Shown here: piece after piece, positions 3,367 to 64,000 of the stretch
Layout of the letters: the number at the start of each line of letters is the position of its first letter
How positions within the stretch are numbered: position 1 is the stretch's first letter
Assembly: GCF_025833875.1 (NCBI RefSeq)
Contig: NZ_JAOYOD010000001.1
Location: forward strand, 2,046,001 to 2,110,000
DNA: 64,000 nt
Direction: 5' to 3'
Source of the DNA: Reichenbachiella ulvae
GTDB lineage: Bacteria; Bacteroidota; Bacteroidia; Cytophagales; Cyclobacteriaceae
Position numbers and translations under genes: made by a program
The notes under the pieces: model-generated
Told to the model about the DNA's origin: nothing
The model's input: the letters and a program-made list of their open reading frames with translations, nothing else
Databases searched by the model: none

Positions 3367-5298
3367 TCACCATCCCGCTACCTCAATATTAATCACCACA
3401 TTATTTCGAGTTTGATCAAAGGATACTTCCAAAGGAAGCGCTTCTGCGCCCGGAACCATATTGAATGTTCTTCCTTGAGGGGTCGCTCTTACCTTGATGG
3501 GAAGATTTGCCGAGACTATTACTTCTCCATTTTCCTTTTTGATCGAGATCTTACGATCATTCAGTTGCCTAACTTTTTCTCCAGACGCTGAAATAATAGG
3601 CAATACGAAGGTAGTTGGATTCAAAATAACTGCAGTGGTCTCTGCCGCTATCTCCATTCCGTCATCGTTGCACGTATAAGTGATTGCAAAATCTGATGCA
3701 GAACCAGTCATTATCTCCCTTGCTTCATTCTTAAGCTTGACATGACCTTTAATGCGGATTTGGCCATTGTTATCCTGAGCACCAATACTTGCACCTAAAT
3801 CAAACAAATTTGTATACCACACATCGTTCTTATAAGATTCAATTCTTGGTGTCAATGCAATATCTTTTCCAGGTAGATTTTGCTGATTCAAGGGTTCCAT
3901 TCTTTTATATATTGCCAAACTTGCTGCACACAAAAGCCCTAGCCTATTATGATAAAGCAGAGAAAGTGAGCTACCTGTAGCTTGTCTGACATCTTTTTTG
4001 TGATAATACTCTGCGTCATAGGCTGTTACTGTTCCTCTCCAGTCTCCTCGCGAAAAAAGATATGTATCTAATTCTTCGAAATATCTAATCCCATCAGAGT
4101 GAGTTCGTGGCAGAGGTGTCTTGCTGTCAATAGTAGGAAGCATATCCCATCGGTCTAACAAGAAGGCCAAAGGTTTAGCATGAGTAAATGTATGATGGAT
4201 ACAAGGTTTAATACCATGCGACACATAATGAGGCCCCCCATGCAATAATCCATCAGCCGTACATTTTTTCAACAATTCTGTATTTCGAATGACCGCTGTA
4301 CCGTAGGCAGGGTTATGAGCAGCTAGCAAGCTAAAAGCGGGCTGAATTCCATCGCACGTTCTACTACCCCAATAAGTCCATTTGAACATTCGAGTGCCCC
4401 AACTATTATCCCAACCACCATCTGGTAACATGAATTCCAAATGACTATTCAATGATTTGATTAGAATCTCAATCAACTCCTCATCATTTTCTTCTACCGC
4501 ATAAATCACGATGCTATTTAAGGATTCTTCCACATTGTAACCAAGGTCAATACCTGGTAAGCCCTTCTCACTTAATTTATGAGCAGAAGGCTTTATTTCA
4601 CCAAACAGCAACTTGTTCTCCGTAGTAAAATAGTTTTTGATCTCAGAGGCCAATTCATGACTTCTTTCTATAAAGATAGGTTGATCCAAAACATGTCCCA
4701 GTAGATAGAGAGCATAGATATTGGTCGCTCCGTAATTAACATTAGTTGCATCTATAGTTGGGAATTTACTGTAGATAAACTTCCCTGCTTTGAGCAACCT
4801 TTCCTTCCATCGTTTAATTCTGTCTTCCCCAATTAAATCCGAATGATATTTCAAAGATTCAGCCAAAGCTATTGCTCCAAAAACAGTTGTTCCATTCCAA
4901 GATTTTGGGTTGACATCATTAGTCCAGCTACCATCTGGCAAGCTTACATTTCTATCAGACCATTCGAAGGCATTGATACCTGCCTCTAAATATTTTTTTT
5001 CTCCAGTAGCCTTCGCCATACAGAAAAAAGGGTAAATAGCATCTTGAAGTCGGGCATGAATCGTATCGTCACCTGGACACACCATCAACCCATGGGTAGT
5101 AGGATCTGAGGGATTATTTATTTGAGTCTTGATCATCCCATCACACCAATCCTTCAACAAATTAAAAACCAACTCTCTATACTCATTAGAATGTGGAATC
5201 CTGGCATTTCCGGACACACAACCTAACAAGGAGCTCAATGGCAAAGACACTCCCAACCCTACTATTGCTGAACTTTGTACAAATTCTCTTCTATTCAT
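3367..5298 (-). CDS. Exported alpha-toroid plus beta-sandwich protein, candidate oligosaccharide lyase/dehydratase
   Basis: This is a 643-residue protein of unassigned family. The N-terminus (MNRREFVQSSAIVGLG...LLGC) combines a twin-arginine-like RR with a lipobox Cys at 27, so it is exported and perhaps lipid-anchored. Residues about 35-420 are helix-rich repeats with aromatic and charged clusters (NVNYGATNIYALYL, DNSWGTRMFKWTYWGSRTC, GGPHYVSHG, IHHTFTHAKPLAFLLD) like an (alpha/alpha) toroid. Residues about 500-643 look like an antiparallel beta-sandwich. That combination is common among polysaccharide lyases and heparinase-like enzymes. The gene follows a sulfatase by 27 bases in the same transcription unit. 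Since no GH105 or GH88 is present, a role on the unsaturated uronyl end is attractive, but this is inference. A non-classified ulvan lyase or the ulvan oligosaccharide dehydratase type are the alternatives I considered. Confidence 0.6.
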   Translation of the reverse strand: MNRREFVQSSAIVGLGVSLPLSSLLGCVSGNARIPHSNEYRELVFNLLKDWCDGMIKTQINNPSDPTTHGLMVCPGDDTIHARLQDAIYPFFCMAKATGEKKYLEAGINAFEWSDRNVSLPDGSWTNDVNPKSWNGTTVFGAIALAESLKYHSDLIGEDRIKRWKERLLKAGKFIYSKFPTIDATNVNYGATNIYALYLLGHVLDQPIFIERSHELASEIKNYFTTENKLLFGEIKPSAHKLSEKGLPGIDLGYNVEESLNSIVIYAVEENDEELIEILIKSLNSHLEFMLPDGGWDNSWGTRMFKWTYWGSRTCDGIQPAFSLLAAHNPAYGTAVIRNTELLKKCTADGLLHGGPHYVSHGIKPCIHHTFTHAKPLAFLLDRWDMLPTIDSKTPLPRTHSDGIRYFEELDTYLFSRGDWRGTVTAYDAEYYHKKDVRQATGSSLSLLYHNRLGLLCAASLAIYKRMEPLNQQNLPGKDIALTPRIESYKNDVWYTNLFDLGASIGAQDNNGQIRIKGHVKLKNEAREIMTGSASDFAITYTCNDDGMEIAAETTAVILNPTTFVLPIISASGEKVRQLNDRKISIKKENGEVIVSANLPIKVRATPQGRTFNMVPGAEALPLEVSFDQTRNNVVINIEVAGW

Positions 5299-5325
5299 AA
5301 TATGTAATATCTATCCAGGATTTCC

Positions 5326-7098
5326 TTACTCTGTTTCATTCCAAATCAGTGTCTCCTGTTGACTCGGTTGATACCCTATTCTATGTGCTTTGGCTGTTAG
5401 AACCACTTGACCTTTCGTTATGGTAAACGGTTCAGTATAGACTGTCCAACTGGAAAGTTCTACACCTGGACTATCGACTACCATATACCCGATAGAGGCA
5501 CCTTCTGTGGCGCTTGTGATTTCGACCGTGTCTGCTTTCATTTTTATTTCAGGAGTAGAGGTTACTGGCATGGCTTGATTCCCATTCCACAGTTTGGTGA
5601 GCAAATCTCGCTCTGATAGCTCGGGATCATCTTCGATCTCATTCAGCCAGCGATCCATTTCCATACTCAGTTCTTGAAGCGTTTCTTCATATTTTGGATC
5701 ATCTGCAAGATTATTCAGTTCATGCGGATCAGCGATACAGTCAAACAATTCTTCCTCAGGCTTTTGATCTCTAAACCACTGGGTCTGCACATCATTCAAT
5801 TGACCTAAGTCTCTCAATCTTAACAACTCCTGCATAGTAGGGATTTGTTCTCGATAGTTCAGTGGCAAATAATACCCCTGTTGAGGTCTATAATTTCTTA
5901 TGTATTTGAATCGTTGATCTTTTACTGCTCGAATAACATCGGTTACTTCATCAAACCGATCTGCAGCGGCATGTATGTATTCTCTTGGCTCAGAGGCCTG
6001 ATTACCCAGAAAAGCTTGGCCATCCATATAATCCGGTATCTCTTTGCCAACCAACGAAAGAAGACTTGGAGCAAAATCAATAAAGCTGACCAATTGATCG
6101 TCTATGGTGCCGTTCATTTCCTGATTAGGATATCTGACGATCAAAGGTGTTTTTAGGCCGGAATCATAAATCAATCGTTTTTGACGAGGCAAGGGTCCTC
6201 CATGGTCTCCATAAAAAAATATGATCGTTTCGTCCAACAGACCATCCTCTTCTAGCTGAGCCAATACTGCGCCCAACTGACTATCCATTTCAGCAATGTT
6301 GTTGTACATTTTCCACATATCCCTTCGAACCACCTCATTGTCTGGTAGGTATGGTGGAATATTGAAGTTCGTATCTTTTGATAAATGTACCGGCGTTTCC
6401 TCTTCTGACATGCGATCTTTGCCCCAGTGGTAGCTCGTATCTCCAGCATGGTAGTGGCGAGTTTCGATGTTTCTAAATCCGTATGGTTCGAAAAGTCCAG
6501 ATTCGTGGGTGTCTGTAAAGTTGAATACAGCAAAAAACGGCTGACCCTTGTCTCTATTTCTCCAATGAGCATAAGGACTATTTTCGTCCCAAGCTGTCAT
6601 AGGAGCCTTGAATTGATAATCTGTTTTGTAATTGTTAGTGCAGTAATAGCCCTCTGCTCTTAATAGTTCGCTGATCATCCTCACATCCGCAGGCGGAACG
6701 GCCTCATAAGGAGGCATTCCTCTTTCCTCTGTGTAGGAATTGGTACGCATATGATTGGCTCCTATTCCCGAAGGGTACATGCCCGTGGCGATAGCGGCAC
6801 GACTAGGTGCACATACTCCAGAGGTGGAATACAAGTTAGTAAACCTGATTCCCTCTGCAGCCAACCTACTCAGGTTGGGCGTTTGAATAGTCGAGTCACC
6901 AAAAGGGGGAATATATTGTCCCATATCCTCTGTAACTAGCCATAAAATATTAGGTCTCTTTTGATCTTTTGTTGCAGAGGCGTTTGAATCATTTTTATCT
7001 AATTTACTACAGCCCCACATTCCAAATAGAATCAAGAGCAATCCAGTTATCAACCGTCCTTTGCTTAGTATTTCATATTTTTCCATTTTCATAGCCAT
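5326..7098 (-). CDS. S1-family sulfatase lipoprotein with C-terminal chitobiase-like beta domain
   Basis: This 590-residue protein has a hydrophobic leader ending in a lipobox (LFGMWGC, Cys 30). The sulfatase core starts at RPNILWLVTEDMG (Glu57/Asp58 as metal ligands, in place of the usual DD). The formylglycine site is CAPSR (Cys 96) followed by AAIATG. The stretch FNFTDTHESGLF and the early ED suggest the S1_8-like branch found in ulvan loci; the subfamily is a judgement by eye. Residues about 500-590 (MKADTVEITSATEGASIGYM... TVYTEPFTI... VVLTAKAHRIGYQPS) resemble the chitobiase/hexosaminidase C-terminal domain often attached to such sulfatases. It needs a formylglycine-generating enzyme, which is not in the window. 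It begins 4 bases after the PL24 gene stop; in-frame ATGs at 7098, 7092 and 7086 are all possible starts. Confidence 0.9.
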   Translation of the reverse strand: MAMKMEKYEILSKGRLITGLLLILFGMWGCSKLDKNDSNASATKDQKRPNILWLVTEDMGQYIPPFGDSTIQTPNLSRLAAEGIRFTNLYSTSGVCAPSRAAIATGMYPSGIGANHMRTNSYTEERGMPPYEAVPPADVRMISELLRAEGYYCTNNYKTDYQFKAPMTAWDENSPYAHWRNRDKGQPFFAVFNFTDTHESGLFEPYGFRNIETRHYHAGDTSYHWGKDRMSEEETPVHLSKDTNFNIPPYLPDNEVVRRDMWKMYNNIAEMDSQLGAVLAQLEEDGLLDETIIFFYGDHGGPLPRQKRLIYDSGLKTPLIVRYPNQEMNGTIDDQLVSFIDFAPSLLSLVGKEIPDYMDGQAFLGNQASEPREYIHAAADRFDEVTDVIRAVKDQRFKYIRNYRPQQGYYLPLNYREQIPTMQELLRLRDLGQLNDVQTQWFRDQKPEEELFDCIADPHELNNLADDPKYEETLQELSMEMDRWLNEIEDDPELSERDLLTKLWNGNQAMPVTSTPEIKMKADTVEITSATEGASIGYMVVDSPGVELSSWTVYTEPFTITKGQVVLTAKAHRIGYQPSQQETLIWNETE

Positions 7099-7102
7099 AG
7101 TT

Positions 7103-8770
7103 TTATTTCACATTAAAGCGATACAAACGTTCTCCGGTATTACCGATTAATTTCAAAATATAAATGCCCGAAGCAAGTGCGGAAACATCTATTGTATTAT
7201 CGATTAACTGCCCCTGATCTAATTGACGTCCCATCAGATTGTAAATTGAATATTCCGAGTCGATTTCATTTACCCCTTCTATCATCAACTGTTGTTCTAC
7301 AGGATTTGGATAGATCAATACCTTAGAGCTGCTTGGTTTAGCATCCAGAACAACTTCAGGCAAGCCTAAATCATATATCTGAAGATGTATCGGTTGAGCA
7401 TCGCCACTAGCATCCTCCATCAAATAGAGATAGAGTCTATTACCTTCAATTAAGACATTCATATGACGAAATTCCACTCCCTTAGTCTCCTCAAATAGTA
7501 GCTGCCAGTTATTTGTTCCTCCTTTTGTAAAATAGATATAGGGTCTTTTTGAATTCAAGCCCATCAGAAACACCATATTTCCTGGAACCGAATAGAGATT
7601 TCCTCCAGGGAAATCGGTAGTTGTAGTAAAAGAATTTTCGCCAGCTCTCTTGTATGCATGAACATTCACCCTTTCACTACTGGCACTAGACCTCACATTA
7701 TTCATGATAAAGTGGACACTCTCTCTATCAGTCACAGTCCAATCAGTACCTGAGCTCATAGTGATAGAGTTCGCCCCTCCATTGGCCACCAAACTACCTG
7801 GCTCGAAAAAGAATAATTTCTCTGGGCTGCTCAAAGGCAAGGTCAAAGATTGCTCTTTATAATTATACCATTCCACTTTACCGTCCTGATCATTGGAGTA
7901 AGCGTAGTGCATGCCATTATTATAGACATACTCGTCATTATTGTAGTTCATCCTCTTAGCAAATCCGACTCGCAGTTTGCCATTGATATACTTCATATCT
8001 CCATATAGCCCCCAGTTGTACTCATTTCCAAAACTTTTGGCATTCAAAACATTGAAGTCCGTGAATGGACCCCATGAGCTACCATCGTACTTGGCGAATT
8101 TGTATGAACCGTTGTTGTTTCCTCCTTCTCTGAACCAAACGAATAATTCATCTCGATCATTGAGAAAAAAATTGGGGTAGGTAATATCCGAATAGTTGTA
8201 TTGAGCATTTAAGTAGGTGTTTTTTGTATAGAAAAGATCCAAACTAAAACTACCGTCAGCTGCGGCGGCTGCACCTACCTTAGACACATTATAATTGAAA
8301 AACGAATCTGGGTACTCTAATTCATTATAAGAATGCATATCATACAAAAGATGAACGGTGCTATCCAATGGACAGATCCCAACTGCAATGGTATTGTGCG
8401 AGTCTCCAATATGCTCGTATTGATGACGAAAACCGACATGAGTATGAGGAAATTCGATTGTTTCTAACACCTCTGTTTTCATATTGTATCTCGACAACAT
8501 AACATGCTTTTCTTCTTCACCTCCAGACCACCATGTCATGAATACATAGTCTCCAAATACTTTGATACAATCTCCGTGAGGAGTAATTCTCCTCCCAAAA
8601 AAGTATTCAAATCCAGGCTCGTTTATGTCTAGATCGTTATTTCCTCTTTTCGCACCATCGAAATACAATCCATTATCAGCAACCTTGAGTTCGATAAGCT
8701 TGGTTACCTCTTGCGCCCTCAAACTCACCGCAAAGAAGATAATTGCACATGCGACCAGATGTCCTTTCAT
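7103..8770 (-). CDS. PL24-type ulvan lyase (BNR-4 beta-propeller) with T9SS tail
   Basis: The 555-residue protein has a signal peptide (about 1-20, ending RAQ). A beta-propeller covers about 21-470, and a type IX secretion sorting domain covers about 480-555 (LIYPNPVEQQLMIEG ... DVSALASGIYILKL). Candidate catalytic residues keep PL24 geometry: His125 in GDSHNT, His146 in LLYDMH (21 apart), Tyr198 in ITYPNFF and Arg214 in VWFREGG (16 apart). From memory, the characterised PL24 enzyme LOR_107 uses His146, His167, Tyr243 and Arg259, which gives the same spacings. The enzyme would cut ulvan at rhamnose-3-sulfate-uronate linkages by beta-elimination outside the cell. It shares its N-terminal architecture with 59512-62358. 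It lies 99 bases downstream of the sulfatase-GH78 fusion gene and 4 bases upstream of a sulfatase. Confidence 0.87.
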   Translation of the reverse strand: MKGHLVACAIIFFAVSLRAQEVTKLIELKVADNGLYFDGAKRGNNDLDINEPGFEYFFGRRITPHGDCIKVFGDYVFMTWWSGGEEEKHVMLSRYNMKTEVLETIEFPHTHVGFRHQYEHIGDSHNTIAVGICPLDSTVHLLYDMHSYNELEYPDSFFNYNVSKVGAAAAADGSFSLDLFYTKNTYLNAQYNYSDITYPNFFLNDRDELFVWFREGGNNNGSYKFAKYDGSSWGPFTDFNVLNAKSFGNEYNWGLYGDMKYINGKLRVGFAKRMNYNNDEYVYNNGMHYAYSNDQDGKVEWYNYKEQSLTLPLSSPEKLFFFEPGSLVANGGANSITMSSGTDWTVTDRESVHFIMNNVRSSASSERVNVHAYKRAGENSFTTTTDFPGGNLYSVPGNMVFLMGLNSKRPYIYFTKGGTNNWQLLFEETKGVEFRHMNVLIEGNRLYLYLMEDASGDAQPIHLQIYDLGLPEVVLDAKPSSSKVLIYPNPVEQQLMIEGVNEIDSEYSIYNLMGRQLDQGQLIDNTIDVSALASGIYILKLIGNTGERLYRFNVK

Positions 8771-13352: not shown

Positions 13353-14480
13353 TTACTTCTTAATAAATCGAATGCATTGCGGATTTGGTAGAGTATCCAA
13401 AGACATTACTTCAGTCAAATCGCCAGTTTGGTGATTGATTTCAAACACTACAATATTGTTAGACCTTTTGTTTGCCACTAGCAAAAAATCACCTGTTGGA
13501 TCAATAGCCAATGCTCTAGGCCAATTCCCTCCACTGGACATTATCCTTTTGAGTGCTATTTCTCCTGTTAGCGGATCAATTTCGCAGATGGCAATACTAT
13601 CATGTCCGCGATTAGAGGCATATAAAAAACGACCGTCCTTACTTACTAATATATCCGCAGACTTATTGAATTGATCATAATTTTCAGGCAAAATACTTTG
13701 GGTATCGATGATATGTCCTATATCATTGTTTATATCAAGTTTCATGGCAACCACATCACCGCTTAATTCGGCCAACAGAAAAACATAAGGGAGTTGTGGG
13801 TGAAAATCGATGTGACGAGGCCCCATACCCGGTTCAAGTTTTATGCCTGATTTCTTAGACTGAGTCAAATGACCATTGGAATGGAGATCAAAAAACATCA
13901 GTTGGTCTGTTCCCAAATCCGGCACCAGCACTTTATTTGAATTTGGTCTTTGATATATCATATGAGGATGAGATGCCTCCTGTCTTTTTAAATTGACACT
14001 ATTGCCATTGAATGTCTTATAAACTATTTCGGAAGCAATAGACCCTGTAGTTGGTTCAAGTTTATAAGTACCTATTGCACTAGACCTATAGTAGGCTACC
14101 ATCAAATGGTTCATGTCAGAGGTTTGACTAATATATGCTCCCCCTCTTCCTGAAGTCATCATGCTATCAATTAGAACTAACTCACCAGTACTTCTTTTTA
14201 TTAGAAAACCATGTATAGCATTCCCATACACACTATATAGCCTATTATTAATTGAGTCAACTGTGAGATATGACGAGTTTTTAACTGCATCACTTAAGAA
14301 AGACGGAGAAAGACTTCTCTTTTCGGGGTTCCAGGAATAGACCCCTATGCCATGATCTCCACCAGATTCATACGAAGAAATATAAATCCAGTATTCTGAT
14401 AAATCTCCTGCTTTCAATATCAGCGAAGAGAAAACTACAATGGCTGAAAGACAAAGCTGTCGTACAACTATCTTTTTCAT
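13353..14480 (-). CDS. Exported lactonase-like seven-bladed beta-propeller protein
   Basis: The 375-residue protein has a signal peptide (MKKIVVRQLCLSAIVVFSSL, cleavage near 24) and repeated propeller blades of the 6-phosphogluconolactonase/3-carboxymuconate-cyclase family (PF10282 type). Visible family features are GMGPRHIDFHPQLPYVFLLAEL, DGRFLYASNRGHDSIAI and GNWPRALAIDPTGDFLLVANK. Cytoplasmic members open sugar lactones. Exported members in polysaccharide loci have unproven substrates. A sugar-lactone role in a rhamnose/uronate locus is possible but is inference. It stands between the decayed gene (12578-13293) and the rhamnosidase genes, with about 105 bases to the upstream gene's end. 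Confidence 0.82.
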   Translation of the reverse strand: MKKIVVRQLCLSAIVVFSSLILKAGDLSEYWIYISSYESGGDHGIGVYSWNPEKRSLSPSFLSDAVKNSSYLTVDSINNRLYSVYGNAIHGFLIKRSTGELVLIDSMMTSGRGGAYISQTSDMNHLMVAYYRSSAIGTYKLEPTTGSIASEIVYKTFNGNSVNLKRQEASHPHMIYQRPNSNKVLVPDLGTDQLMFFDLHSNGHLTQSKKSGIKLEPGMGPRHIDFHPQLPYVFLLAELSGDVVAMKLDINNDIGHIIDTQSILPENYDQFNKSADILVSKDGRFLYASNRGHDSIAICEIDPLTGEIALKRIMSSGGNWPRALAIDPTGDFLLVANKRSNNIVVFEINHQTGDLTEVMSLDTLPNPQCIRFIKK

Positions 14481-14585: not shown

Positions 14586-15010
14586 CTAAGACTTTACATC
14601 AAAGATTTTCAACTCAGAAATCTTAGGTGGCCTAAGCACATGATCAATCCACACCCTACACTTGGTAGTCCTCAACTGATCAAAAGTGTGAGTTCTACCT
14701 TCCCCACAAGTTTCTCCTGATGTGATATCAGTCCACTTTCCATGTTGCCAATATTGAAGTTTATAACTACTGATGTAATTGCCAACTTCGTCTATTACAA
14801 CCGTATTGAAAGTCTGAGGCTTGAGCCACTCTACTTCTAGCCATTCATCTGTTGTACCATCAGCCTGCCAGCCGGTTTCTGGATTTTCGTCGTTGGCCTT
14901 GAACGCTTCGTACCCTGGCAGTTTCTCTGTTTCTATGTACATTGATGATGCATTCATTCGTCCGATGGTTGCTAGATTTTCTGGAACCATTATAGGATCA
15001 GGAAGAGAGG
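14586..15010 (-). pseudogene. F5/8 type C carbohydrate-binding domain detached from GH78 by a frameshift
   Basis: This is the C-terminal end of the rhamnosidase gene 14998-17844, now in another frame. It encodes a discoidin-like (F5/8 type C) domain: NLATIGRMNASSMYIETEKL, AFKANDENPETGWQADG, DEWLEVEWLKPQTF and PKISELKIFDVKS. The rhamnosidase at 37348-40614 carries the same domain in frame, with nearly the same opening (NLATIGRMNASSMYIETEKL). Such domains bind sugar chains or cell-wall glycans. There is no ribosome-binding site or signal sequence for separate expression, so as a free polypeptide it would be useless outside the cell. An ATG upstream at 15062 exists, but that stretch overlaps the other frame and is not protein-like. 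Confidence 0.8.
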
Positions 15011-20638: not shown

Positions 20639-20669
20639 AACTCTGTATCTAAATCTACATTTTGACTCA

Positions 20670-24310: not shown

Positions 24311-24314
24311 CTTT

Positions 24315-50447: not shown

Positions 50448-50457
50448 ATTCCTATTT

Positions 50458-51510: not shown

Positions 51511-51528
51511 TTTATATGATTCTATTCG

Positions 51529-52959: not shown

Positions 52960-53045
52960 TCTTTGCTTTTTTGAATTGAACAATTTACAAAGGACAAAAC
53001 GCCTATTTTTTAACAATTTGGCATTTCATTTATACTATTTGATTT
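52960..53045. promoter_or_regulatory. Divergent promoter region between isomerase and AraC genes
   Basis: These 86 AT-rich bases must contain promoters for both directions and probably the regulator's binding site. On the minus strand, ATTG and GTCCTTTG separated by 18 bases (about 53023 down to 52992) resemble the Bacteroidota -33/-7 pair. On the plus strand a TATTTG lies only a few bases before the AraC ATG, so that mRNA may have a very short leader. Both are weak matches by eye. Confidence 0.35.
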
Positions 53046-53968: not shown

Positions 53969-55192
53969 CTACACCTTGATGTACTTGGCACATATAGTTC
54001 TTAAGCGCTTTTCGTCCAGCTCCAACCCAAAGCCTGGTGCGGGATTCATTGCATAATAACCGTTCGAGTCTTTTCTTGTGGCGGAAGTGACAATGCAATT
54101 CATGTAGTCTTTCGAATCTTCCTCTTTCTCGATGGCCTCTACCCAAGACGCACCAGCACCAATGGCGATCTGCTGCCAGGCAGTACATGCAGGACCAGCC
54201 AAACTATCATCGCCGATCATTACTTTTGCTCCTAATTGCTGAACTTTGGCGGCCAGCAGGGCAGTATGACTAAAACTTCCCATGGTAGATGGATGAAGGT
54301 TAAAAATTCTGCCCATGTCTGGCGATATCGTCTCGATACCATGCCATGCAGGTCGCATTGGTTTGTCAGGAATTAGATCCAACTTCCCTACCATTTTTTG
54401 CAATTGTACCCATTGCTTTGTAGTCATCTCTGCCGGATCCTCGATGGCGTCTAACCCATTCGCACTGAACAGTTTCATCGTAGAAGCCAGTTCCTTTAGA
54501 GATGTCCATTTTTTGTACCCACTATTCACATCGGCTATTACGGTTGCCTTTTCACCCAAAACCTCTCGAATGATACGCAGCAGGCTAAGGTCAACTTCCT
54601 GATCACCATACATTTTGAACTTCATGTGATGACCCAAATTTTGCTCTAGACTTTTTTCGGTCTCCTCTCGCAGCTTCGATTCATCTTTATGCAAGATGCA
54701 GTAAAGTCCGGGAACTGGCTCGCGCTGGCTCAGTCCCAACAGTTCGACCACTGGTCTGCCTTGCAAGCGACCCGCTAAATCCAAAAGTCCCATATCCATC
54801 AGTTCCAGCTGTTTTAGCGAGGTAGATGAACCTTCTATCTGCTGGGATTTCAGACGATTTTGAGCCTCTGCCACTGTTAATCCTTTGAACTGCTCCACGT
54901 ATTTGACCCAAGAACTAAAGTCTTCATTCGGATTGTTTCTGGACGCTGGAATTTCGGACCAGCCGCACTGATCTCCGGCACTTATTTTAATAAAAAGATG
55001 CTGACGATTGAGCCAAGTGCCAAATGAAAAATAGCGCGGAATATTGATGTCGTACCTGTAGCATTCGATTTGGCTAATTTTAACCCCCAGATTTTTATTT
55101 TGACTAACGAAAGAAGACAACAATGGGTAGGTCATACTCATCATGCCTAATACTGATAGGTCTTTTATAAATTCTCTCCTTACCTTTTTCAT
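53969..55192 (-). CDS. Exported enolase-superfamily (mandelate racemase/muconate lactonizing type) protein
   Basis: Starting at 55192 (MKKVRREFIKDLSVLGMMSM; ATG at 55210 also possible), it has 407 residues and a twin-arginine-like leader (RREFIKD plus a hydrophobic segment). The enolase fold is visible: an N-terminal capping domain, then barrel residues KFK near 191-193 (KxK catalytic lysine), Asp221 in VIADVNSGYKKW, Glu251 in AIEDPAEM, Asp276 in LIPDKPMRPAW, and GDDSLAGPA near 327. These are the three metal ligands and acid/base positions of the muconate-cycloisomerase-like subgroup. Members dehydrate, racemise or epimerise sugar acids. Most are cytoplasmic, so export is notable. In this setting a sugar-acid dehydratase such as one for rhamnonate or uronates is conceivable; the sequence does not fix the substrate. 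Confidence 0.8.
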   Translation of the reverse strand: MKKVRREFIKDLSVLGMMSMTYPLLSSFVSQNKNLGVKISQIECYRYDINIPRYFSFGTWLNRQHLFIKISAGDQCGWSEIPASRNNPNEDFSSWVKYVEQFKGLTVAEAQNRLKSQQIEGSSTSLKQLELMDMGLLDLAGRLQGRPVVELLGLSQREPVPGLYCILHKDESKLREETEKSLEQNLGHHMKFKMYGDQEVDLSLLRIIREVLGEKATVIADVNSGYKKWTSLKELASTMKLFSANGLDAIEDPAEMTTKQWVQLQKMVGKLDLIPDKPMRPAWHGIETISPDMGRIFNLHPSTMGSFSHTALLAAKVQQLGAKVMIGDDSLAGPACTAWQQIAIGAGASWVEAIEKEEDSKDYMNCIVTSATRKDSNGYYAMNPAPGFGLELDEKRLRTICAKYIKV

Positions 55193-55285
55193 TGTTACTT
55201 GATTATCCATTCTGAGACAAGAAAATTTTATTCCTAGAATGATATATTGCTGAATGCTCCGCTAAATTTTCAGCATCATTTTCAT

Positions 55286-55983: not shown

Positions 55984-56775
55984 TTAATCAATTAGATTCT
56001 TTAAGCTTATATTTCGAAACTCTACTTTCATAGGCGGTCCCACGTGCACTTGCATACCGATAAACCCTTTGGTTGATCGGTTTAGTGTATCCTTGTCTAG
56101 CACCTCGCTCATAAGCACGCCATTCACGTAGTGTTGCAATAGGTTGTCTTTGGCAAAAATTCTCAGCGTATTCCAATCATTATCTTTGATTAATGATTTC
56201 AAGGAATCTGGTGCCAAAACCTTAGACAACACTTGCCTGGTTTGCCAGCAATTTTTAGTCACATTAGAGCGCAAGTTTTGTGTTGAATCCGGCTTGTTCC
56301 AATTACCAATTTTCACTTTCTCACCCATGTATGCCAGGGTCGTTCTCTTCTTCTCTTCATAATTCTGACCTACATAGCGTTTCTTGCCATCTATATCACA
56401 TTGATAACCTTGCAAAGCGAAAGGCTTATCATTGAAATAATTACTTCGATAATTTACCCCGCTATTTCCTGACTCTGAAATCCGATATTCAAGCATCAAT
56501 TCAAAATCTTCTGGCTGACCTCCTTGCCAAATGACAAATGAATTGGCTTCCAGAATGGTCTCAGGGGTTACTTCACCTACGAGGTTTCCATTTTCAACAC
56601 GCCAATAGGTCGAGTCACCTTTCCATCCGTCCAAGGATCTGCCGTCAAATATTTTGACAAAACTACGCTGCCTCTGATCAAGCTCGGAGCTGGTGCATCC
56701 CAGCACCAGTCCCCATATCATCAGTAGTAGACTGCTATAGGCAGCACTGTTTATTACATTTTTATGCTTACCCAT
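55984..56775 (-). CDS. DUF1080 / 3-keto-disaccharide hydrolase-like lipoprotein
   Basis: The start is taken at the ATG 56775-56773 (MGKHKNVINSAAYSSLLLMI, lipobox LVLGC near residue 27), giving 263 residues; one codon upstream is TTG. The domain is a concanavalin-like beta-sandwich with the DUF1080 signatures KIFDGRSLDGWKGDSTYWRV, NGNLVGEVTPET, ELMLEYRISESGNSGVNYRS and, near the end, KGFIGMQVHVGPPMKVEFRN. Characterised members cleave 3-keto-glycosides, and the family recurs in sugar-degrading loci. Its start codon shares one base with the GH2 stop (TGATG), so it is translationally coupled to that enzyme. Confidence 0.88.
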   Translation of the reverse strand: MGKHKNVINSAAYSSLLLMIWGLVLGCTSSELDQRQRSFVKIFDGRSLDGWKGDSTYWRVENGNLVGEVTPETILEANSFVIWQGGQPEDFELMLEYRISESGNSGVNYRSNYFNDKPFALQGYQCDIDGKKRYVGQNYEEKKRTTLAYMGEKVKIGNWNKPDSTQNLRSNVTKNCWQTRQVLSKVLAPDSLKSLIKDNDWNTLRIFAKDNLLQHYVNGVLMSEVLDKDTLNRSTKGFIGMQVHVGPPMKVEFRNISLKNLID

Positions 56776-59234
56776 CAAAGCGACTTCAATTTGATACTTG
56801 CCGAGGCTAACCCTTGGCTAGACACCTTCACTAAAACCTCTCCTGGCTGGCCAGTACTTTGCAGAATCATCAAAGCTTTGCCATTAAAAACTTTTCGCTC
56901 ATTTAGCTTTGTAGAATTGAGGTCTAGTGGGTCTCCATTGTCTAGCCCAATGTTTTCGACCGGACCAGAGATTTCAAATTTGAGTTGATTACCCGCATTT
57001 GGTACGAAATTACCGTCTCCATCCAGAATATTTACTTCCAGATGCACACAACTCAATCCATCTGCCTTGAAGGCATTTTTGTCAGCTATCACTTCTACAC
57101 TGGCCGGAGCACCAGCAGTCTTCATTACTTTTTCACTGACCACCTTTCCGTTCGTTCTGGCTATTGCTCTCAATTCGCCAGGTTGATAAGTCACGTCCCA
57201 AGTCAGGTTTTGTTGTCCTTTGTTGGATTTCGCTCCGAGTGATTTCCCATTGAGATAAAGTTCTACTTCATCTGCATTCGAATAGGTCCACACCGGTATC
57301 ACTTTGCCTTCGAGTCCTGGCCATGTCCAATGCGGTAAAATATGAACCATGGGTTCGTCTGTCCATTGACTTTGGTAGTAGTAGTAATGGTCTTTGGGAA
57401 ATCCACACAAATCTATGATACCAAAATTAAAGAACCTGGCAGGCCATCCTTTGATCGCCTCACCTAAATAATCATACCCCGTCCAGCGAAACTCACCAGC
57501 TACATAAGCTAAGCTGTCTGTTCTTCTCCAGGAATCCCTGGCACTGATGCGAACACTAGAATTGTCGTAAGACGAGCTATAATATTTGTTAGTATAATCT
57601 GCAAATACTTCCGATTCAGTCAGGTTTGGAACGTGTATGCCTTGCTGCGGCGAGCGCATGTCGGTTTGGGTTTGATAATAACCTCTGGTCTGAAATGAGT
57701 GAGGGATCTCGGTAGCGATAAATTTTCTATTTGGATATACTGCTTTATCCTTTTCATAGAAAACAGACCCTCCCCCGCCATTGTAACCAGTCACGTCCAA
57801 AAGAGAAGAAAAACCAGTATCATTGGCGAGATGTATAAAGCAACATCCGGCTGTGACTGGACGCGTCGGATCCAATCGGTGCACTGTTTCCATGAGAGGC
57901 TTCAGTCGCTCCGGCCCTTCCGGATAGCACTGGTCTGGAATTTCGTTACCAACACTCCACATAAAAATACTTGGGTGATTGCGATCACGCACGATTATAT
58001 CCGTCAAATCCCGCTGAGACCACTCCTCAAAGTGCTCGTGATAGCCGTGAGTCACTTTCCCTCGATCTTTGTAATCTTCCCATGGCCATGAGGCAATCCA
58101 TTCATCAAATATCTCGTCCATGACCAGAAAGCCCATCGTATCTGCCATGTGATAAAACTCAGGTGAAAAAGGATTATGTGCGGTACGGATGGCATTGCAG
58201 CCCATGTCCTTCAAAATCTTCAATCTTCTATAAAGAACGTCATCAGGAACGGCAGCACCCACAGGACCACCATCGTGGTGGTTGTTTACACCCTTTACTT
58301 TTATATTTTCACCATTGAGCCAAAATCCGGTTTCAATCTCGAAACGAATATCGCGTACTCCAAATGGCGTTTCATACTCATCGATCACTTCTCCATTGGA
58401 TACAAGTTTAGTTAGGAGCAAATACATATTAGGATCGTCAAATGACCAACATGCCGGATTGGAGATTGTCATTTTCTGGTTGAGCGTAGATTGTCCGTTC
58501 GCATCTATGCTTTGATCATTTTGAATCTCAGCCACTTGCTCTCCTGCTCTATTCTGGATGATTGAAACGACTTGTATGTCCGCTTTATCGCCCGTTGTAT
58601 TTTCTACGACAGTCTCAATTTTGATGGTAGCACTTTTGTTAGAAATGTCTTCGGCTACTATGTATGTGCCATTTTGCGCCACAGCAATCTTGTTTTTTAC
58701 ATTAAGCCATACATTCCGATAGATTCCAGCTCCGGTGTACCACCTGCTATTCGGTTGGGCAGAGTTGTCTGCTTTGACCAGCAAAACGTTTTCTCCAACG
58801 ATTAAATAAAGTGTTAAATCATAGGTGAAACCAACATATCCGTTGGGTCTGGTTCCTAGTGATTGTCCATTGATCCAAACCTCACTGTTGCTCATGATCC
58901 CATCAAAGGTGACAGACACATTCTTTCCATCCCAGGATGAATCGTACGAAAAGGATTTGCGATAGTAGCCAATGCCTCCAGGATAAAAGCCTCCCTGACT
59001 TCCCGAAGGATTTTCCTGTTTTATTTCGCCTGCTATGCTCCAGTCATGAGGAATTTTTACTTCAGACCAATTCCTATCATCAAGCCCCCCATTTCCAACA
59101 CCTTCTTTTGCTTCAAGCGTAAACTCCCAACCCGCGTTAAAGCTAACTTTTCGGTCAGATTCGAATCTTTTAAAATCTGTTTTACAGCCACAAACTAAAA
59201 GTACCGCCATTAGTACTATCAATAATCTAATCAT
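56775..59234 (-). CDS. GH2 beta-galactosidase/glucuronidase-like lipoprotein
   Basis: The 819-residue lipoprotein has lipobox LVCGC (Cys17). It has the standard GH2 order: a sugar-binding jelly roll (about 28-180, FNAGWEFTL, IPHDWSIAGE, NSRWYTGAGIYRNVWL), an Ig-like domain (180-290), and a TIM barrel (295-600). The barrel has acid/base Glu431 in MWSVGNEIPDQC and nucleophile Glu509 in KFIATEIPHSF. Two C-terminal Ig-like domains of the DUF4982 and invasin-like type follow (about 650-819: EVELYLNGKSLGAKSNKG; AFKADGLSCVHLEVNILDGD). It differs from the GH2 at 30903 in domain make-up and probably in substrate. Its stop overlaps the start of the DUF1080 gene. The 277 bases upstream (59235-59511) hold no gene; they include an AT-rich promoter-like stretch and a CCCTTTGATTAAAGGG inverted repeat at 59292-59307. 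Confidence 0.91.
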   Translation of the reverse strand: MIRLLIVLMAVLLVCGCKTDFKRFESDRKVSFNAGWEFTLEAKEGVGNGGLDDRNWSEVKIPHDWSIAGEIKQENPSGSQGGFYPGGIGYYRKSFSYDSSWDGKNVSVTFDGIMSNSEVWINGQSLGTRPNGYVGFTYDLTLYLIVGENVLLVKADNSAQPNSRWYTGAGIYRNVWLNVKNKIAVAQNGTYIVAEDISNKSATIKIETVVENTTGDKADIQVVSIIQNRAGEQVAEIQNDQSIDANGQSTLNQKMTISNPACWSFDDPNMYLLLTKLVSNGEVIDEYETPFGVRDIRFEIETGFWLNGENIKVKGVNNHHDGGPVGAAVPDDVLYRRLKILKDMGCNAIRTAHNPFSPEFYHMADTMGFLVMDEIFDEWIASWPWEDYKDRGKVTHGYHEHFEEWSQRDLTDIIVRDRNHPSIFMWSVGNEIPDQCYPEGPERLKPLMETVHRLDPTRPVTAGCCFIHLANDTGFSSLLDVTGYNGGGGSVFYEKDKAVYPNRKFIATEIPHSFQTRGYYQTQTDMRSPQQGIHVPNLTESEVFADYTNKYYSSSYDNSSVRISARDSWRRTDSLAYVAGEFRWTGYDYLGEAIKGWPARFFNFGIIDLCGFPKDHYYYYQSQWTDEPMVHILPHWTWPGLEGKVIPVWTYSNADEVELYLNGKSLGAKSNKGQQNLTWDVTYQPGELRAIARTNGKVVSEKVMKTAGAPASVEVIADKNAFKADGLSCVHLEVNILDGDGNFVPNAGNQLKFEISGPVENIGLDNGDPLDLNSTKLNERKVFNGKALMILQSTGQPGEVLVKVSSQGLASASIKLKSL

Positions 59235-59463: not shown

Positions 59464-60834
59464 CTGATTGATTTGCTCCCTACCCTTCGAAGGGTAGAGA
59501 GCAAGATCTGATTATTCAACAATCAATTTCTGCTGGTACATAAGACCTTGATTATCGATGGCCTTGATTAGATACATTCCTCTGGTAAACAAAGTACCCT
59601 TAGATAACTCAATCTTGCCCTCTATGGAATCAGTTTGATAAAGCTCCAAACCTCCCAAAGTATAAATCGCCAAAGTTTCAATGGAATTACCGTCAAGGGT
59701 AATAGTAAACTTATCCTTCGCAGGATTCGGGTAAATTTGGAGATACTGGCTCTTCGGTTTTGAAGCAGCACTTTCATTATCCGATCTCATGCGGGCACCA
59801 CCCGACGGGATATACGTAATCTCCAGCTTAGCTGAAGGAACACTACTTTCTTTGGAGGCAAAGGCTGCATCATTTCCTCCTGATTGAGTCAATATTAGAC
59901 TTAATTCTCCACCACCGCTGATGGATGATTCATCCAATGCCCAAGTGTAGGTCGAGCCCACATTGTAGGTCGTATTGATCGACCCCAGCTGTCCAGAAGA
60001 AGACGGTGCATTGCTGGTCGATAGATTATCCTCTGTCCAATTGCTGGAATTGCCTTTGGCTACTGTGATCAATCCACTGCCCCCATCGCTATCGCATGTC
60101 AGCTTTAGCTGGGCATCTGTAATCGTACCATTGATCGATGAAAGATCGAACTGCAGATAACCTACCCTATTTCCACTTTCGATTCGAATCAGTGTATTGT
60201 TATGCCTAGTACTGCCCTGTAGATAAGCATCTTCTGTAGGCGAAAGCGTAGTAGTAACCGGATCAGGAGTGACTGAGCCTTCCACGATGTTTAGCTCGTT
60301 GATACTCACCCAGTTGCTGGAATAGCCAGTCGCGCCGGTCACTGTCAGTTTCACATATCGGCCGCTGGTAGAGGCAAAGCTATGCTCGATAGGATGTGAT
60401 GCGGCTGTACCGGACTGATTCACCACCTCTACAAAGCCACTGTTTGGATTGTCTGATATGCTGATCGTATAGTGATAGGATCGGTTCTGGTAGGTGTGCA
60501 CCTGTGTACCCACTATGTTCTTTGATTCTCCATAGTCGATTACTACTGATTTAGGATACACCTGCGCACTCCAGCGATGGTCATCGTCGGTCAAGCCGTC
60601 CAATAGATTTTCTGCCACATTGGGAGCCTGCGCTCCGTCTGCGGATTCGATCTCAGGGTAGGAAACTGACTTGACATAACATTTTTTGACCGTGCCTGGG
60701 ATTGGATCTCCAAACGTGGCATTGCTGCAAGTCACATCGCTGGTTTGGTTATAGAGGTAATTGAATTGGCCAATGGCACCATAGGCTATGTCAATGGTAC
60801 CTGTTACATTTACCATATCCCCTTCGTCAGCGGC
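59464..60834. repeat. Long direct repeat, copy 1 (C-terminal modules plus downstream hairpin)
   Basis: These 1371 bases recur at 62577-63947, exactly 3113 bases further on, with only five differences that I could find (for example 59826-region bases unchanged, one Lys/Thr and one Ser/Gly change, three silent changes). The repeat covers the post-stop hairpin, the T9SS tail, the CBM96-like domain, the F5/8 type C domain and the ANEGD-type linker. Similarity falls abruptly at both borders. There is no transposase or terminal inverted repeat, so gene duplication with recent gene conversion is the likely cause. Confidence 0.93.
59475..59502 (-). terminator. Hairpin after the PL24 lyase gene
   Basis: A 13-base-pair stem with one C-A mismatch is centred on TTCGAA, including the perfect 18-base palindrome CTACCCTTCGAAGGGTAG (59480-59497). 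It starts 9 bases past the stop codon of the minus-strand lyase gene. No clear T-run follows, so it may act as an mRNA stabiliser or a weak terminator. The same hairpin stands at 62588-62615. Confidence 0.6.
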
Positions 60835-62358
60835 GAAGGTGAAACCGGCTGGTGGGGTGTCATTGTTTCCAGCCAAACCCAAATCAAATACTTGTAAATA
60901 AGTGGTTCGCTTGTCGCCAGATCCTCCCGCTTGTTTTAAATAATAATATAATTTCCCTTCTTTTACATAAACTACACCTTTATCAAAAGTAGGCCCTGAA
61001 TTGTGTTGGTAGATTTCAACGAAATTACTTTCACCTCCTTCAGTTTTTACAATGTTTACACGCCCATTTTTTAGGCCAATCACATAAACATCGTTTCCAG
61101 CATTATATACTTCGCCTCCTGCATCATATTCTACAGTTGTAAATTGTGAATTTCCAGCTTTTCGATAGGTATGCAACCTTTTGGTTACATTATATTGATC
61201 ATCTCGAACCATACTTACAAAGTGCTCATCTCCAGCATCAGTCACCGTAAAGTCAAATCCGCTAACAATGAAGACTTTGTCTTTTTGTGTGGTTTGTACA
61301 AAGTCCCCTGGCTCGGCTATTTTAATGAGCTCTGCATCTGCCAACGGAGATGAAAAGTTGGTGCCTTGAAAGTCTTTCCACTGGGTTTTTCCTTCAGGAT
61401 CATCAGAATAAGCATAATAAATACCATTTTGATATAAATATTTATCGTTTCTGATACTGGAGCGTTTTTGAAATCCAATACGGATCTTACCATTGACGTA
61501 CTTGTAATCTCCATAAAGCCCCCAATTATCAGCACTTCCATGACTAGAGGCTTGCATTCTGTTAAAATCAGTATATCCTTCCCACTTAGTTCCGTCAAAC
61601 CTAGCCAGCATAAATTTTCCATTTCTGGAATATCCAAATCTGGTTTTCATAAAAAGGTCTCCCTCGTCGTTCGTAAAGAAGGCAGGATAGGTCAATAGCT
61701 TGGTAGTATTCACATCATCAATACCTACAAATTCTAAATGTTTATAATTTCCGGCCGGTGAGTTGACAAAACGCTCAATTGTAAATTGGTTGTCAGGTAC
61801 CGTAGCTGCTCCATCTTCAGAAAAGGAGTATCTCAGATAATCTTCAGTACCAATATTGTCTCTGATAATATTTCCGTTTCGGTGCAAATCATAAACCATG
61901 TGAATGGTTTCGTCCTTTGGACAAATGCCTATACCGATCGTATTGTGTGTTTCTCCTATCCACCATTGCCCATCAAACCCTGTATGTCTGTGTGGAAATT
62001 CGATGGTTTTTAAAACACCTGTCTTCGTATTGTACCGGCTCAGCATCACATGGCGATCATTTTTACCACCCCTGTACCATGTCATAAAGACAAAGTTCTT
62101 ATACGTTTTGATACAGTCTCCATGAGGAGTCAGTGCATTACCGTAAACAAAATCGTATCCATTAGGATTATTTGCGGTATGGTTGATAGAAACTTGATTT
62201 CCATCAAAAAACATAACATCATCTGAGATTTTCACCTCTGTTTCCAGAAATACCTGTGCAAATACGCGCTGAGATAATACAGCGAGCAACGCAAATACCA
62301 GCGTAATTTTTGATAAAGTTTTCCCATGTAAGAGAAATGTATTTTTAAAATATTTCAT
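59512..62358 (-). CDS. Multi-domain PL24-type ulvan lyase with F5/8C, CBM96-like and T9SS modules
   Basis: The 948-residue secreted enzyme has a signal peptide to about 35. The PL24 beta-propeller (36-500) has His138 in GETHNT, His159 in MVYDLH (21 apart), Tyr224 in LTYPAFF and Arg240 in MKTRFG (16 apart), the same catalytic geometry as the lyase at 7103-8770. Next come a linker domain (about 510-585, FAADEGDMVNVTGTIDIAYG) and an F5/8 type C domain (585-705, APNVAENLLDGLTDDDHRWS, SSNWVSINELNIVEG). A CBM96/DNRLRE-like domain follows (710-850, TLSPTEDAYLQGSTRHNNT, SAKLEITYIPSG), and the T9SS sorting tail is at 870-948 (LQIYPNPAKDKFTITLDG). This is the best candidate for the first, extracellular cut of ulvan, with two modules to hold the polymer. 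It precedes the GH2 gene by 277 bases. Confidence 0.9.
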   Translation of the reverse strand: MKYFKNTFLLHGKTLSKITLVFALLAVLSQRVFAQVFLETEVKISDDVMFFDGNQVSINHTANNPNGYDFVYGNALTPHGDCIKTYKNFVFMTWYRGGKNDRHVMLSRYNTKTGVLKTIEFPHRHTGFDGQWWIGETHNTIGIGICPKDETIHMVYDLHRNGNIIRDNIGTEDYLRYSFSEDGAATVPDNQFTIERFVNSPAGNYKHLEFVGIDDVNTTKLLTYPAFFTNDEGDLFMKTRFGYSRNGKFMLARFDGTKWEGYTDFNRMQASSHGSADNWGLYGDYKYVNGKIRIGFQKRSSIRNDKYLYQNGIYYAYSDDPEGKTQWKDFQGTNFSSPLADAELIKIAEPGDFVQTTQKDKVFIVSGFDFTVTDAGDEHFVSMVRDDQYNVTKRLHTYRKAGNSQFTTVEYDAGGEVYNAGNDVYVIGLKNGRVNIVKTEGGESNFVEIYQHNSGPTFDKGVVYVKEGKLYYYLKQAGGSGDKRTTYLQVFDLGLAGNNDTPPAGFTFAADEGDMVNVTGTIDIAYGAIGQFNYLYNQTSDVTCSNATFGDPIPGTVKKCYVKSVSYPEIESADGAQAPNVAENLLDGLTDDDHRWSAQVYPKSVVIDYGESKNIVGTQVHTYQNRSYHYTISISDNPNSGFVEVVNQSGTAASHPIEHSFASTSGRYVKLTVTGATGYSSNWVSINELNIVEGSVTPDPVTTTLSPTEDAYLQGSTRHNNTLIRIESGNRVGYLQFDLSSINGTITDAQLKLTCDSDGGSGLITVAKGNSSNWTEDNLSTSNAPSSSGQLGSINTTYNVGSTYTWALDESSISGGGELSLILTQSGGNDAAFASKESSVPSAKLEITYIPSGGARMRSDNESAASKPKSQYLQIYPNPAKDKFTITLDGNSIETLAIYTLGGLELYQTDSIEGKIELSKGTLFTRGMYLIKAIDNQGLMYQQKLIVE

Positions 62359-62576: not shown

Positions 62577-63947
62577 CTGATTGATTTGCTCCCTACCCTT
62601 CGAAGGGTAGAGAGCAAGATCTGATTATTCAACAATCAATTTCTGCTGGTACATAAGACCTTGATTATCGATGGCCTTGATTAGATACATTCCTCTGGTA
62701 AACAAAGTACCCTTAGATAACTCAATCTTGCCCTCTATGGAATCAGTTTGATAAAGCTCCAAACCTCCCAAAGTATAAATCGCCAAAGTTTCAATGGAAT
62801 TACCGTCAAGGGTAATAGTAAACTTGTCCTTCGCAGGATTCGGGTAAATTTGGAGATACTGGCCCTTCGGTTTTGAAGCAGCACTTTCATTATCCGATCT
62901 CATGCGGGCACCACCCGACGGGATATACGTAATCTCCAGCTTAGCTGAAGGAACACTACTTTCTTTGGAGGCAAAGGCTGCATCATTTCCTCCTGATTGA
63001 GTCAATATTAGACTTAATTCTCCACCACCGCTGATGGATGATTCATCCAATGCCCAAGTGTAGGTCGAGCCCACATTGTAGGTCGTATTGATCGACCCCA
63101 GCTGTCCAGAAGAAGACGGTGCATTGCTGGTCGATAGATTATCCTCTGTCCAATTGCTGGAATTGCCTTTGGCTACTGTGATCAATCCACTGCCCCCATC
63201 GCTATCGCATGTCAGCTTTAGCTGGGCATCTGTAATCGTACCATTGATCGATGAAAGATCGAACTGCAGATAACCTACCCTATTTCCACTTTCGATTCGA
63301 ATCAGTGTATTGTTATGCCTAGTACTGCCCTGTAGATAAGCATCTTCTGTAGGCGAAAGCGTAGTAGTAACCGGATCAGGAGTGACTGAGCCTTCCACGA
63401 TGTTTAGCTCGTTGATACTCACCCAGTTGCTGGAATAGCCAGTCGCGCCGGTCACTGTCAGTTTCACATATCGGCCGCTGGTAGAGGCAAAGCTATGCTC
63501 GATAGGATGTGATGCGGCTTTACCGGACTGATTCACCACCTCTACAAAGCCACTGTTTGGATTGTCTGATATGCTGATCGTATAGTGATAGGATCGGTTC
63601 TGGTAGGTGTGCACCTGTGTACCCACTATGTTCTTTGATTCTCCATAGTCGATTACTACTGATTTAGGATACACCTGCGCACTCCAGCGATGGTCATCGT
63701 CGGTCAAGCCGTCCAATAGATTTTCTGCCACATTGGGAGCCTGCGCTCCGTCTGCGGATTCGATCTCAGGGTAGGAAACTGACTTGACATAACATTTTTT
63801 GACCGTGCCTGGGATTGGATCTCCAAACGTGGCATTGCTACAAGTCACATCGCTGGTTTGGTTGTAGAGGTAATTGAATTGGCCAATGGCACCATAGGCT
63901 ATGTCAATGGTACCTGTTACATTTACCATATCCCCTTCGTCAGCGGC
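62577..63947. repeat. Long direct repeat, copy 2
   Basis: This is the partner of 59464-60834. It holds the hairpin and the C-terminal modules of the next lyase gene. Beyond 63947 the coding sequence stays homologous at protein level (PPAGF-ADEGD in both) but diverges strongly in nucleotides, so the near-identity is confined to this block. Confidence 0.93.
62588..62615 (-). terminator. Hairpin after the second lyase gene
   Basis: This is a base-for-base copy of the stem-loop at 59475-59502, 10 bases past the stop of the gene at 62625-64000. The next gene starts 229 bases further on; those bases (62359-62587) hold no gene. This arrangement makes separate transcripts for the two lyases likely, if the hairpin terminates. 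Confidence 0.55.
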
Positions 63948-64000
63948 ATAAGAGAAGCCCGCGGGTGGAGCGTCATTTTCGTCCAGACCTAAGTCAATTA
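62625..64000 (-). CDS. C-terminal part of a second multi-domain lyase-type protein (cut by window end)
   Basis: The frame stays open to the window edge and enters as IDLGLDENDAPPAGFSYAADE, so the internal Met at 63929 is not the start. What is visible is about 458 residues: the end of the catalytic region (the DLGL that closes the propeller in the neighbour), then linker, F5/8 type C, CBM96-like and T9SS sorting modules. The last 434 residues differ from those of 59512-62358 at only two positions (Lys for Thr in NQSGKAASHP; Gly for Ser in SKPKGQYLQ). A PL24-type propeller upstream is the natural expectation, but the catalytic part is outside the window, so another catalytic domain on the same chassis is possible. 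Confidence 0.85.
   Translation of the reverse strand, partial: IDLGLDENDAPPAGFSYAADEGDMVNVTGTIDIAYGAIGQFNYLYNQTSDVTCSNATFGDPIPGTVKKCYVKSVSYPEIESADGAQAPNVAENLLDGLTDDDHRWSAQVYPKSVVIDYGESKNIVGTQVHTYQNRSYHYTISISDNPNSGFVEVVNQSGKAASHPIEHSFASTSGRYVKLTVTGATGYSSNWVSINELNIVEGSVTPDPVTTTLSPTEDAYLQGSTRHNNTLIRIESGNRVGYLQFDLSSINGTITDAQLKLTCDSDGGSGLITVAKGNSSNWTEDNLSTSNAPSSSGQLGSINTTYNVGSTYTWALDESSISGGGELSLILTQSGGNDAAFASKESSVPSAKLEITYIPSGGARMRSDNESAASKPKGQYLQIYPNPAKDKFTITLDGNSIETLAIYTLGGLELYQTDSIEGKIELSKGTLFTRGMYLIKAIDNQGLMYQQKLIVE

Follow-up and report, generated by a model that had tools for sequence, protein, structure and literature searches.

Which polysaccharide is broken down by a gene cluster that combines propeller-type lyases with many sulfatases and rhamnosidases? 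The question is raised by a 64,000-bp stretch of the 5.56-Mb genome of Reichenbachiella ulvae (bases 2046001-2110000; this whole stretch is called the window, and positions follow its numbering unless stated otherwise). An initial annotation had described it as a 60-kb ulvan-type degradation locus with lyases of families PL24 and PL25. The window holds 36 open reading frames (ORFs) of at least 150 amino acids; one is antisense to another and two share one frame at the right edge, and a Pfam profile scan was applied to the remaining 34 (Table 1). With a probability of about 0.9, judged from sequence, the window represents the section of an ulvan utilisation locus that is rich in enzymes, and there is good support for the predicted ulvan-type degradation by PL24 and PL25 lyases.

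Lyases of two ulvan families

Three BNR_4 propellers are complete in the window (7103-8770, 22943-24376 and 59512-62358), and a fourth, PL24c, crosses the right edge. The three complete ones had been assigned to ulvan lyase families by the spacing of active-site residues (His-21-His for PL24, His-20-His for PL25, Tyr-16-Arg for both), and structure matches with aligned residues bear this out for two PL24 proteins and one PL25 protein. The spacings are H125-H146 (21) and Y198-R214 (16) in PL24a and H119-H139 (20) and Y184-R200 (16) in PL25, while PL24b has the set H138-H159 and Y224-R240. These positions align with those of solved chains, 6BYP and 7CZH for PL24a and PL24b and 5UAM for PL25; the roles of such residues in PL24 lyases are taken here as known. 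The set in PL24c is recognised by spacing and motif only. Spacing alone is weak evidence, as further H/H/Y/R combinations in the same propellers also fit, so the alignments to solved chains carry the lyase assignment. A chance match is excluded by E-values of 5.9e-120 (PL24a), 1.4e-138 (PL24b) and 6.9e-125 (PL25); for PL25 the next different protein after 5UAM reaches only 0.0056.

The initial annotation had named a family tree as a check. In a tree of 34 chosen rows, PL24a, PL24b and PL24c fall in one 15-row clade with the references 6BYP and 7CZH (support 97/99). The PL25 protein stands among PL25-type rows outside the PL24 clade; the joining forks are open there, and rooting is affected by three long BNR_4 rows. 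No propeller was seen outside the PL24 and PL25 groupings.

All listed ORFs between the two AraC-type genes lie on the minus strand, except an antisense ORF at 37813-38391. The ulvan-type character of the locus stood, but not its end at 64000, since it runs to about window position 80728. In order, the genes to the right are the third PL24 gene (PL24c, 62625-65438) and those for a GH42-like protein, a protein with a GH115 C-terminal domain, SusD, SusC and a hybrid two-component sensor. The presence of a SusC/SusD pair (L017:7682-12459 in the region right of the window) and a sensor-regulator (L017:13613-17728) is the pattern by which a Bacteroidota polysaccharide utilisation locus (PUL) is recognised. 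GH3, sulfatase, GH2 and GH88/105 genes follow further right, beyond the sensor.

A putative dehydratase and the proposed pathway

The 643-amino-acid protein at 3367-5298 matched nothing in local sets of Pfam, NCBIfam and PDB sequences. A candidate identity is provided by the ulvan-oligosaccharide dehydratase P29_PDnc of Formosa agariphila, for which the variants D248N, E254Q, E255Q, D269N, D290N, R300E, K303I and Y306F have been described, and activity is lost on changing Asp248, the arginine or Lys303 (PMC8511951). For the essential arginine, the variant list of that paper gives R300 but its text R230; a figure legend, which numbers the essential trio Asp242, Arg294 and Lys297, is consistent with R300. 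The R. ulvae protein carries D251, E257, E258, D272, D293, R303, K306 and Y309, all eight at the listed spacing. This pattern is present in 119 of 119 homologues among the matches listed (of 2854), and the residues are invariant across 71 sequences chosen from 120. Within 163 kb no further ORF of 100 amino acids or more has it, and among 887 ORFs from 78 PL25 loci it is confined to five, all of them homologues of the same protein. The predicted structure (pLDDT 86.5, pTM 0.87) has an (alpha/alpha) toroid and a beta part. Its whole-length Foldseek matches are glycosaminoglycan lyases, alginate lyases and dermatan sulfate epimerase, all of them enzymes working on C5 of uronic acids; taken by itself, the helical half gives its best alignments with sugar epimerases. 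From the residues and the whole-length model matches we infer that the protein is a homologue of P29_PDnc.

Family assignments and conserved residues are observed directly; the following scheme adds a likely substrate, order of action, location and expression. Acting on the cell surface or outside the cell, the three PL24 enzymes and PL25 would use beta-elimination to cleave bonds between 3-sulfated rhamnose (Rha3S) and uronate in ulvan, and the SusC/SusD pair encoded a little beyond the right edge of the window would import the oligosaccharides. S1 sulfatases would strip sulfate and the GH78 and GH106 enzymes remove rhamnose, with a contribution from the P36-like sulfatase-GH78 fusion. The P29-like protein may dehydrate an exposed saturated glucuronic acid (GlcA) or iduronic acid (IdoA) end, which would then be released by a GH88/GH105-type hydrolase; the nearest gene of that type is 32 kb right of the window. 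GH43 and GH2 enzymes would take off other sugars, and RhaT, the rhamnose genes and the mannonate genes would supply central metabolism.

The distribution of these genes was examined in 31 PL25 genomes, that of R. ulvae and 30 others chosen on long contigs from the 78 PL25 loci (L029 was left out). PL24 is present in 26, in every case with a copy within 64 kb of PL25. A P29-like protein occurs in 19, the GH78-like subfamily GH78L in 24, and PL24, the P29-like protein and GH78L together in 15. Grouped by phylum from organism titles and the placement of each genus, all 17 Bacteroidota, the single Verrucomicrobiota genome and one of the 13 Pseudomonadota have the P29-like protein; because the search started from a Bacteroidota protein, it may have missed distant homologues. 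The split suggests two styles of ulvan processing.

Rhamnosidases, substrate and related systems

The six sulfatases and nine rhamnosidase-type genes counted in the initial annotation are recovered with Pfam as six PF00884 domains, one of them fused, and as seven GH78 (again one fused) and two GH106 genes. Cysteine occupies the nucleophile position in all six sulfatases. A missing nucleophile in sulfatase c and in the fused sulfatase was ruled out by alignment, which gives CGASR and CAASR, respectively; alanine is accepted at the third position of the motif. GH78L1, GH78L2 and GH78L3 match PF17389 at 80-88 bits (cut-off 24.5) and share the motif DCPDRE, and GH78L3 aligns with 2OKX. The F5/8 domain of GH78b seems to have been cut off by a frame change or sequencing error, because the ORF at 14586-15062 matches the C-terminal domain of the paralogue GH78d in another frame. 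Part of the rhamnosidase number is due to duplication, since GH78b and GH78d are 64% identical and GH78L2 and GH78L3 66%.

The number had been called unusually high. It is high, at the top of the range close to PL25, but not exceptional. Rhamnosidase-type ORFs near PL25 were counted in 55 other loci of at least 20 kb with R. ulvae proteins as queries, which may undercount other loci: 16 have none, 20 have one, 15 have two, two have three and two have four. The window has four within 10 kb of PL25, a figure equalled by those last two loci. Per 64 kb it has seven GH78-type genes, and at least 4 of the 30 other PL25 genomes reach that number (at least 10, 8, 8 and 7), as counted from the best 150 of 214 GH78 matches plus all 35 GH78L matches, a lower bound that returned 5 of the true 7 here. 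The GH78L subfamily, with three copies in the window, is found at 44% identity or more in the 24 PL25 genomes mentioned above.

Two alternatives concern the propellers themselves. Were the target a polymer of the rhamnogalacturonan or arabinogalactan type, they would be GH145 rhamnosidases or rhamnose-glucuronic acid (Rha-GlcA) lyases, and there are faint matches in that direction (7ESL, 54.9 bits; NF052497, 38 bits), together with a weakly YesU-like DUF1961 protein. However, the cut-off of NF052497 is 700 bits and six sulfatases lie in the window, which makes such a polymer scarcely credible; a GH145 or Rha-GlcA lyase identity of the propellers is ruled out by ulvan lyase matches stronger by more than 300 bits. 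That some propellers are non-catalytic binding proteins is very unlikely, as no supporting point was found and the His/His/Tyr/Arg set is present in all four, in the fourth by spacing and motif.

The substrate itself could differ, being rhamnan sulfate or an ulvan with rhamnose branches, with rhamnosidases that cut rhamnose-rhamnose bonds. The nine rhamnosidase-type genes, the four close to PL25 and the two GH106 genes speak for this, GH106 having been called previously unreported in characterised ulvan systems in PMC13050008. Yet GH106 homologues occur in 24 of the 78 PL25 loci, and the GH78-type number is matched or exceeded elsewhere. The lyases and the dehydratase-like protein need a uronic acid, and the lyases, that protein and the uronate catabolism genes, including those for mannonate, all imply one in the substrate. 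The rival is thus unlikely, and ulvan is favoured over rhamnan sulfate because of the P29-like protein, the sulfatase-GH78 fusion, GH43 and the uronate catabolism genes. The step in the initial annotation from rhamnosidase number to multiply sulfated or side-chain rhamnose, or to rhamnan sulfate, is not supported, given a number that is not exceptional and partly the result of duplication, and a GH78L subfamily that is common.

Several observations weigh against an ulvan utilisation locus as described here. Likeness to P29_PDnc is judged by published residue numbers, not whole sequence. The window lacks a PF07470 gene, the closest one being next to a chemoreceptor-like sensor gene 32 kb beyond the right edge. 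The lactate dehydrogenase, rhamnulokinase and rhamnose isomerase candidates left of the window are all below NCBIfam cut-offs. In a sample of 395 genomes of the same class, PL25 occurs in two and the P29-like protein in two, and only R. ulvae has them together: the second PL25 genome (G361) has neither the P29-like protein nor GH78L, so the association of this protein with Bacteroidota is not strict, and the second P29 genome (G202) has no PL25. GH78L is present in 8 of the 395, with seven besides R. ulvae at 37-40% identity, in a search that scored at most two candidates per genome.

The combination of PL24 with PL25 is already published, and the present locus is a large addition to that known type of gene cluster: a PL24, PL25 and dehydratase locus from a Cytophagales-like chromosome. 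The probable placement in the Cytophagales fits the fructose-bisphosphatase, which among named homologues comes closest to those of Cyclobacteriaceae and Reichenbachiella. Among organisms with ulvan loci, Echinicola sp. 20G presumably belongs to the same order as R. ulvae. Its loci share a PL25-type lyase, GH2, GH43 and GH78, but they are two separate loci, and no PL24 is named for the strain in the accessible text of PMC9182395. The locus of Formosa agariphila KMM 3901 (PMC8511951) shares the P29-type dehydratase, the sulfatase-GH78 fusion (P36), S1 sulfatases, GH78, GH43 and GH2, as well as GH3 and a GH88/105 gene, here further right; its list has PL28 and PL40, whereas PL24, PL25 and two GH106 genes are found here, where PL28, PL37 and PL40 were not searched for. 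Shared with the ulvan plasmid of Alteromonas sp. 76-1 are PL24 and PL25, of which the plasmid has three and two, predicted rhamnosidases and monomer-processing genes; strains LOR and PLSV have homologous ulvan genes (PMC6431674). In contrast to that plasmid, the R. ulvae genes are part of a 5.5-Mb contig and are accompanied by SusC/SusD, a hybrid sensor, T9SS tails and the P29-like protein. A. macleodii HT-3 has PL24, PL25 and PL40 (PMC12915356). The Pseudoalteromonas marina PUA1001 locus shares PL24, PL25, GH106 and GH115; it has PL40 and seven glycoside hydrolases in total (PMC13050008), compared with nine rhamnosidase-type genes alone here.

PL24 tails and other features

The tails of PL24b and PL24c, which hold binding and type IX secretion system (T9SS) domains, are nearly identical: blastn gives 98.97% DNA identity over 1353 bp, with 14 mismatches and 0 gaps. 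The tract runs from nucleotide 1495 of PL24b to the stop, and 55 bp past the stop are also 98% identical. Nine of the 14 mismatches fall within the first 30 bp and five within the remaining 1,323 bp. The catalytic parts of these adjacent genes share about 48% of residues, and in the tree that of PL24c groups with PL24a (99/92), not with PL24b. An assembly error is less likely, because there are differences between the tail copies and the contig that carries them is 5.5 Mb long. The simplest account is that one tail was replaced by the other through recent conversion or unequal crossing-over, which is likely, and near-identical lyase tails would be the mark of such an event.

For comparison, 20 PL24-type pairs were collected from 14 of 15 regions, hand-picked from PL24 matches, in 11 other genomes; the one remaining region, which belongs to a twelfth genome, has a single PL24 ORF and hence no pair. 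No DNA stretch of 85% identity or more was found in any of the 20 pairs. In 13 pairs the tails resemble each other less than the catalytic parts do, in three, each involving a distant homologue, they do so more, and in the other four one or both genes lack the tail. Tail homogenisation as a general trait of tandem PL24 genes is ruled out by these pairs. It remains a tentative and rather doubtful idea that PL24b and PL24c swap tails by recombination just past the propeller, with one tail kept uniform while the catalytic heads diverge; if so, ulvan lyases would adapt by head-swapping on a shared binding/T9SS tail.

Table 1. Features of the R. ulvae window, by position
Feature	Position	Strand	Evidence
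Bifunctional rhamnulose-1-phosphate aldolase/short-chain dehydrogenase, part	1..891	-	NF006191 2.9e-169
Class 1 fructose-bisphosphatase	1295..2281	+	PF00316, PF18913
AraC-type regulator 1	2304..3182	-	PF12833, PF02311; 34% identical to regulator 2
Putative P29_PDnc homologue (ulvan-oligosaccharide dehydratase)	3367..5298	-	8 mutated residues at exact spacing; structure model
S1 sulfatase a	5326..7098	-	PF00884, CAPSR
PL24 ulvan lyase a, T9SS tail	7103..8770	-	6BYP 5.9e-120, catalytic residues, tree
Sulfatase-GH78 fusion, architecture as Formosa P36	8870..12400	-	PF00884 then PF25788, PF17389, PF17390; CAASR
7-bladed lactonase-type propeller	13353..14480	-	PF10282 2e-86
F5/8 binding-domain ORF, frame differs from GH78b	14586..15062	-	57% identical to GH78d residues 950-1086
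GH78b rhamnosidase	14998..17844	-	PF17389 2.6e-58
GH78c rhamnosidase	17873..20812	-	PF17389 7.4e-114
S1 sulfatase c	20670..22130	-	PF00884; CGASR at nucleophile position
DUF1961 (YesU-like) protein	22134..22946	-	PF09224 1.5e-8; YesU 1OQ1 weak, E 0.0065
PL25 ulvan lyase	22943..24376	-	5UAM 6.9e-125, catalytic residues
GH78L1, GH78-like rhamnosidase subfamily	24315..26663	-	PF17389 9.3e-25; DCPDRE motif
S1 sulfatase d	27020..28441	-	PF00884, CAPSR
S1 sulfatase e	28453..29922	-	PF00884, CAPSR
GH43	29915..30853	-	PF04616 2.2e-36
GH2-type glycosidase	30903..33854	-	PF02837; 8U01 3e-159
GH106a rhamnosidase	33866..37117	-	PF17132 2.2e-216
GH78d rhamnosidase with F5/8 domain	37348..40614	-	PF17389 3.6e-53, PF22633
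GH78L2	40645..43023	-	PF17389 9.2e-24; 66% identical to GH78L3
GH78L3	43024..45441	-	PF17389 2.9e-22; rhamnosidase B 2OKX 2.3e-30
GH106b rhamnosidase	45496..48987	-	PF17132 4.2e-185
S1 sulfatase f	48930..50474	-	PF00884, CTPHR
RhaT rhamnose transporter	50458..51510	-	PF06379 4.7e-67
Sugar isomerase, arabinose/sulfoquinovose-isomerase-like	51529..53016	-	NF002795 59 bits (cut-off 622), NF048012 52 bits (cut-off 700)
AraC-type regulator 2	53046..53930	+	PF12833
Enolase-superfamily protein	53969..55210	-	PF13378 1.1e-14
Stand-alone SusC-type N-terminal and plug domain, without barrel, 221 aa	55286..55951	-	PF07715; TIGR04056 75.5 bits (cut-off 368)
3-keto-disaccharide hydrolase domain protein	55984..56778	-	PF06439 1.3e-36
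GH2 glycosidase	56775..59234	-	PF02836, PF18565
PL24 ulvan lyase b, F5/8, CBM96 and T9SS domains	59512..62358	-	7CZH 1.4e-138, residues, Pfam domains
PL24b tail tract	59512..60864	-	blastn against PL24c tail 62625-63977
PL24 ulvan lyase c, C-terminal part	62625..64000 (gene to 65438)	-	domains; BNR_4 beyond edge; ORF 937 aa

Rhamnose uptake and catabolism genes had been placed at the flanks, but RhaT lies inside the locus. Most of the aldolase gene is left of the window, and its NF006191 match falls short of the cut-off set for the whole protein, as a partial sequence should. Mannonate dehydratase and D-mannonate oxidoreductase, also left of the window, are both above their NCBIfam cut-offs.

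The DUF1961 gene directly adjoins PL25, and homologues are found near PL25 in 5 of the 78 other loci. The enolase-superfamily protein, in the midst of a polysaccharide locus, has an apparent export signal (by eye). Elsewhere in the genome, a PUL-type sensor Y_Y_Y domain is joined to HAMP and MCP parts in four chemoreceptors (L018:14675-18505, L104, L108 and L111), seen among five scanned of the 18 MCP matches; Reg_prop blades are matched in three of the four, and L104, L108 and L111 hold partial genes. A two-gene unit, encoding a 286-amino-acid protein and a protein with a GH115 C-terminal domain, occurs twice (genome positions 2114456-2116568 and 2127164-2129359), and the two copies have 68% DNA identity over 1988 bp.

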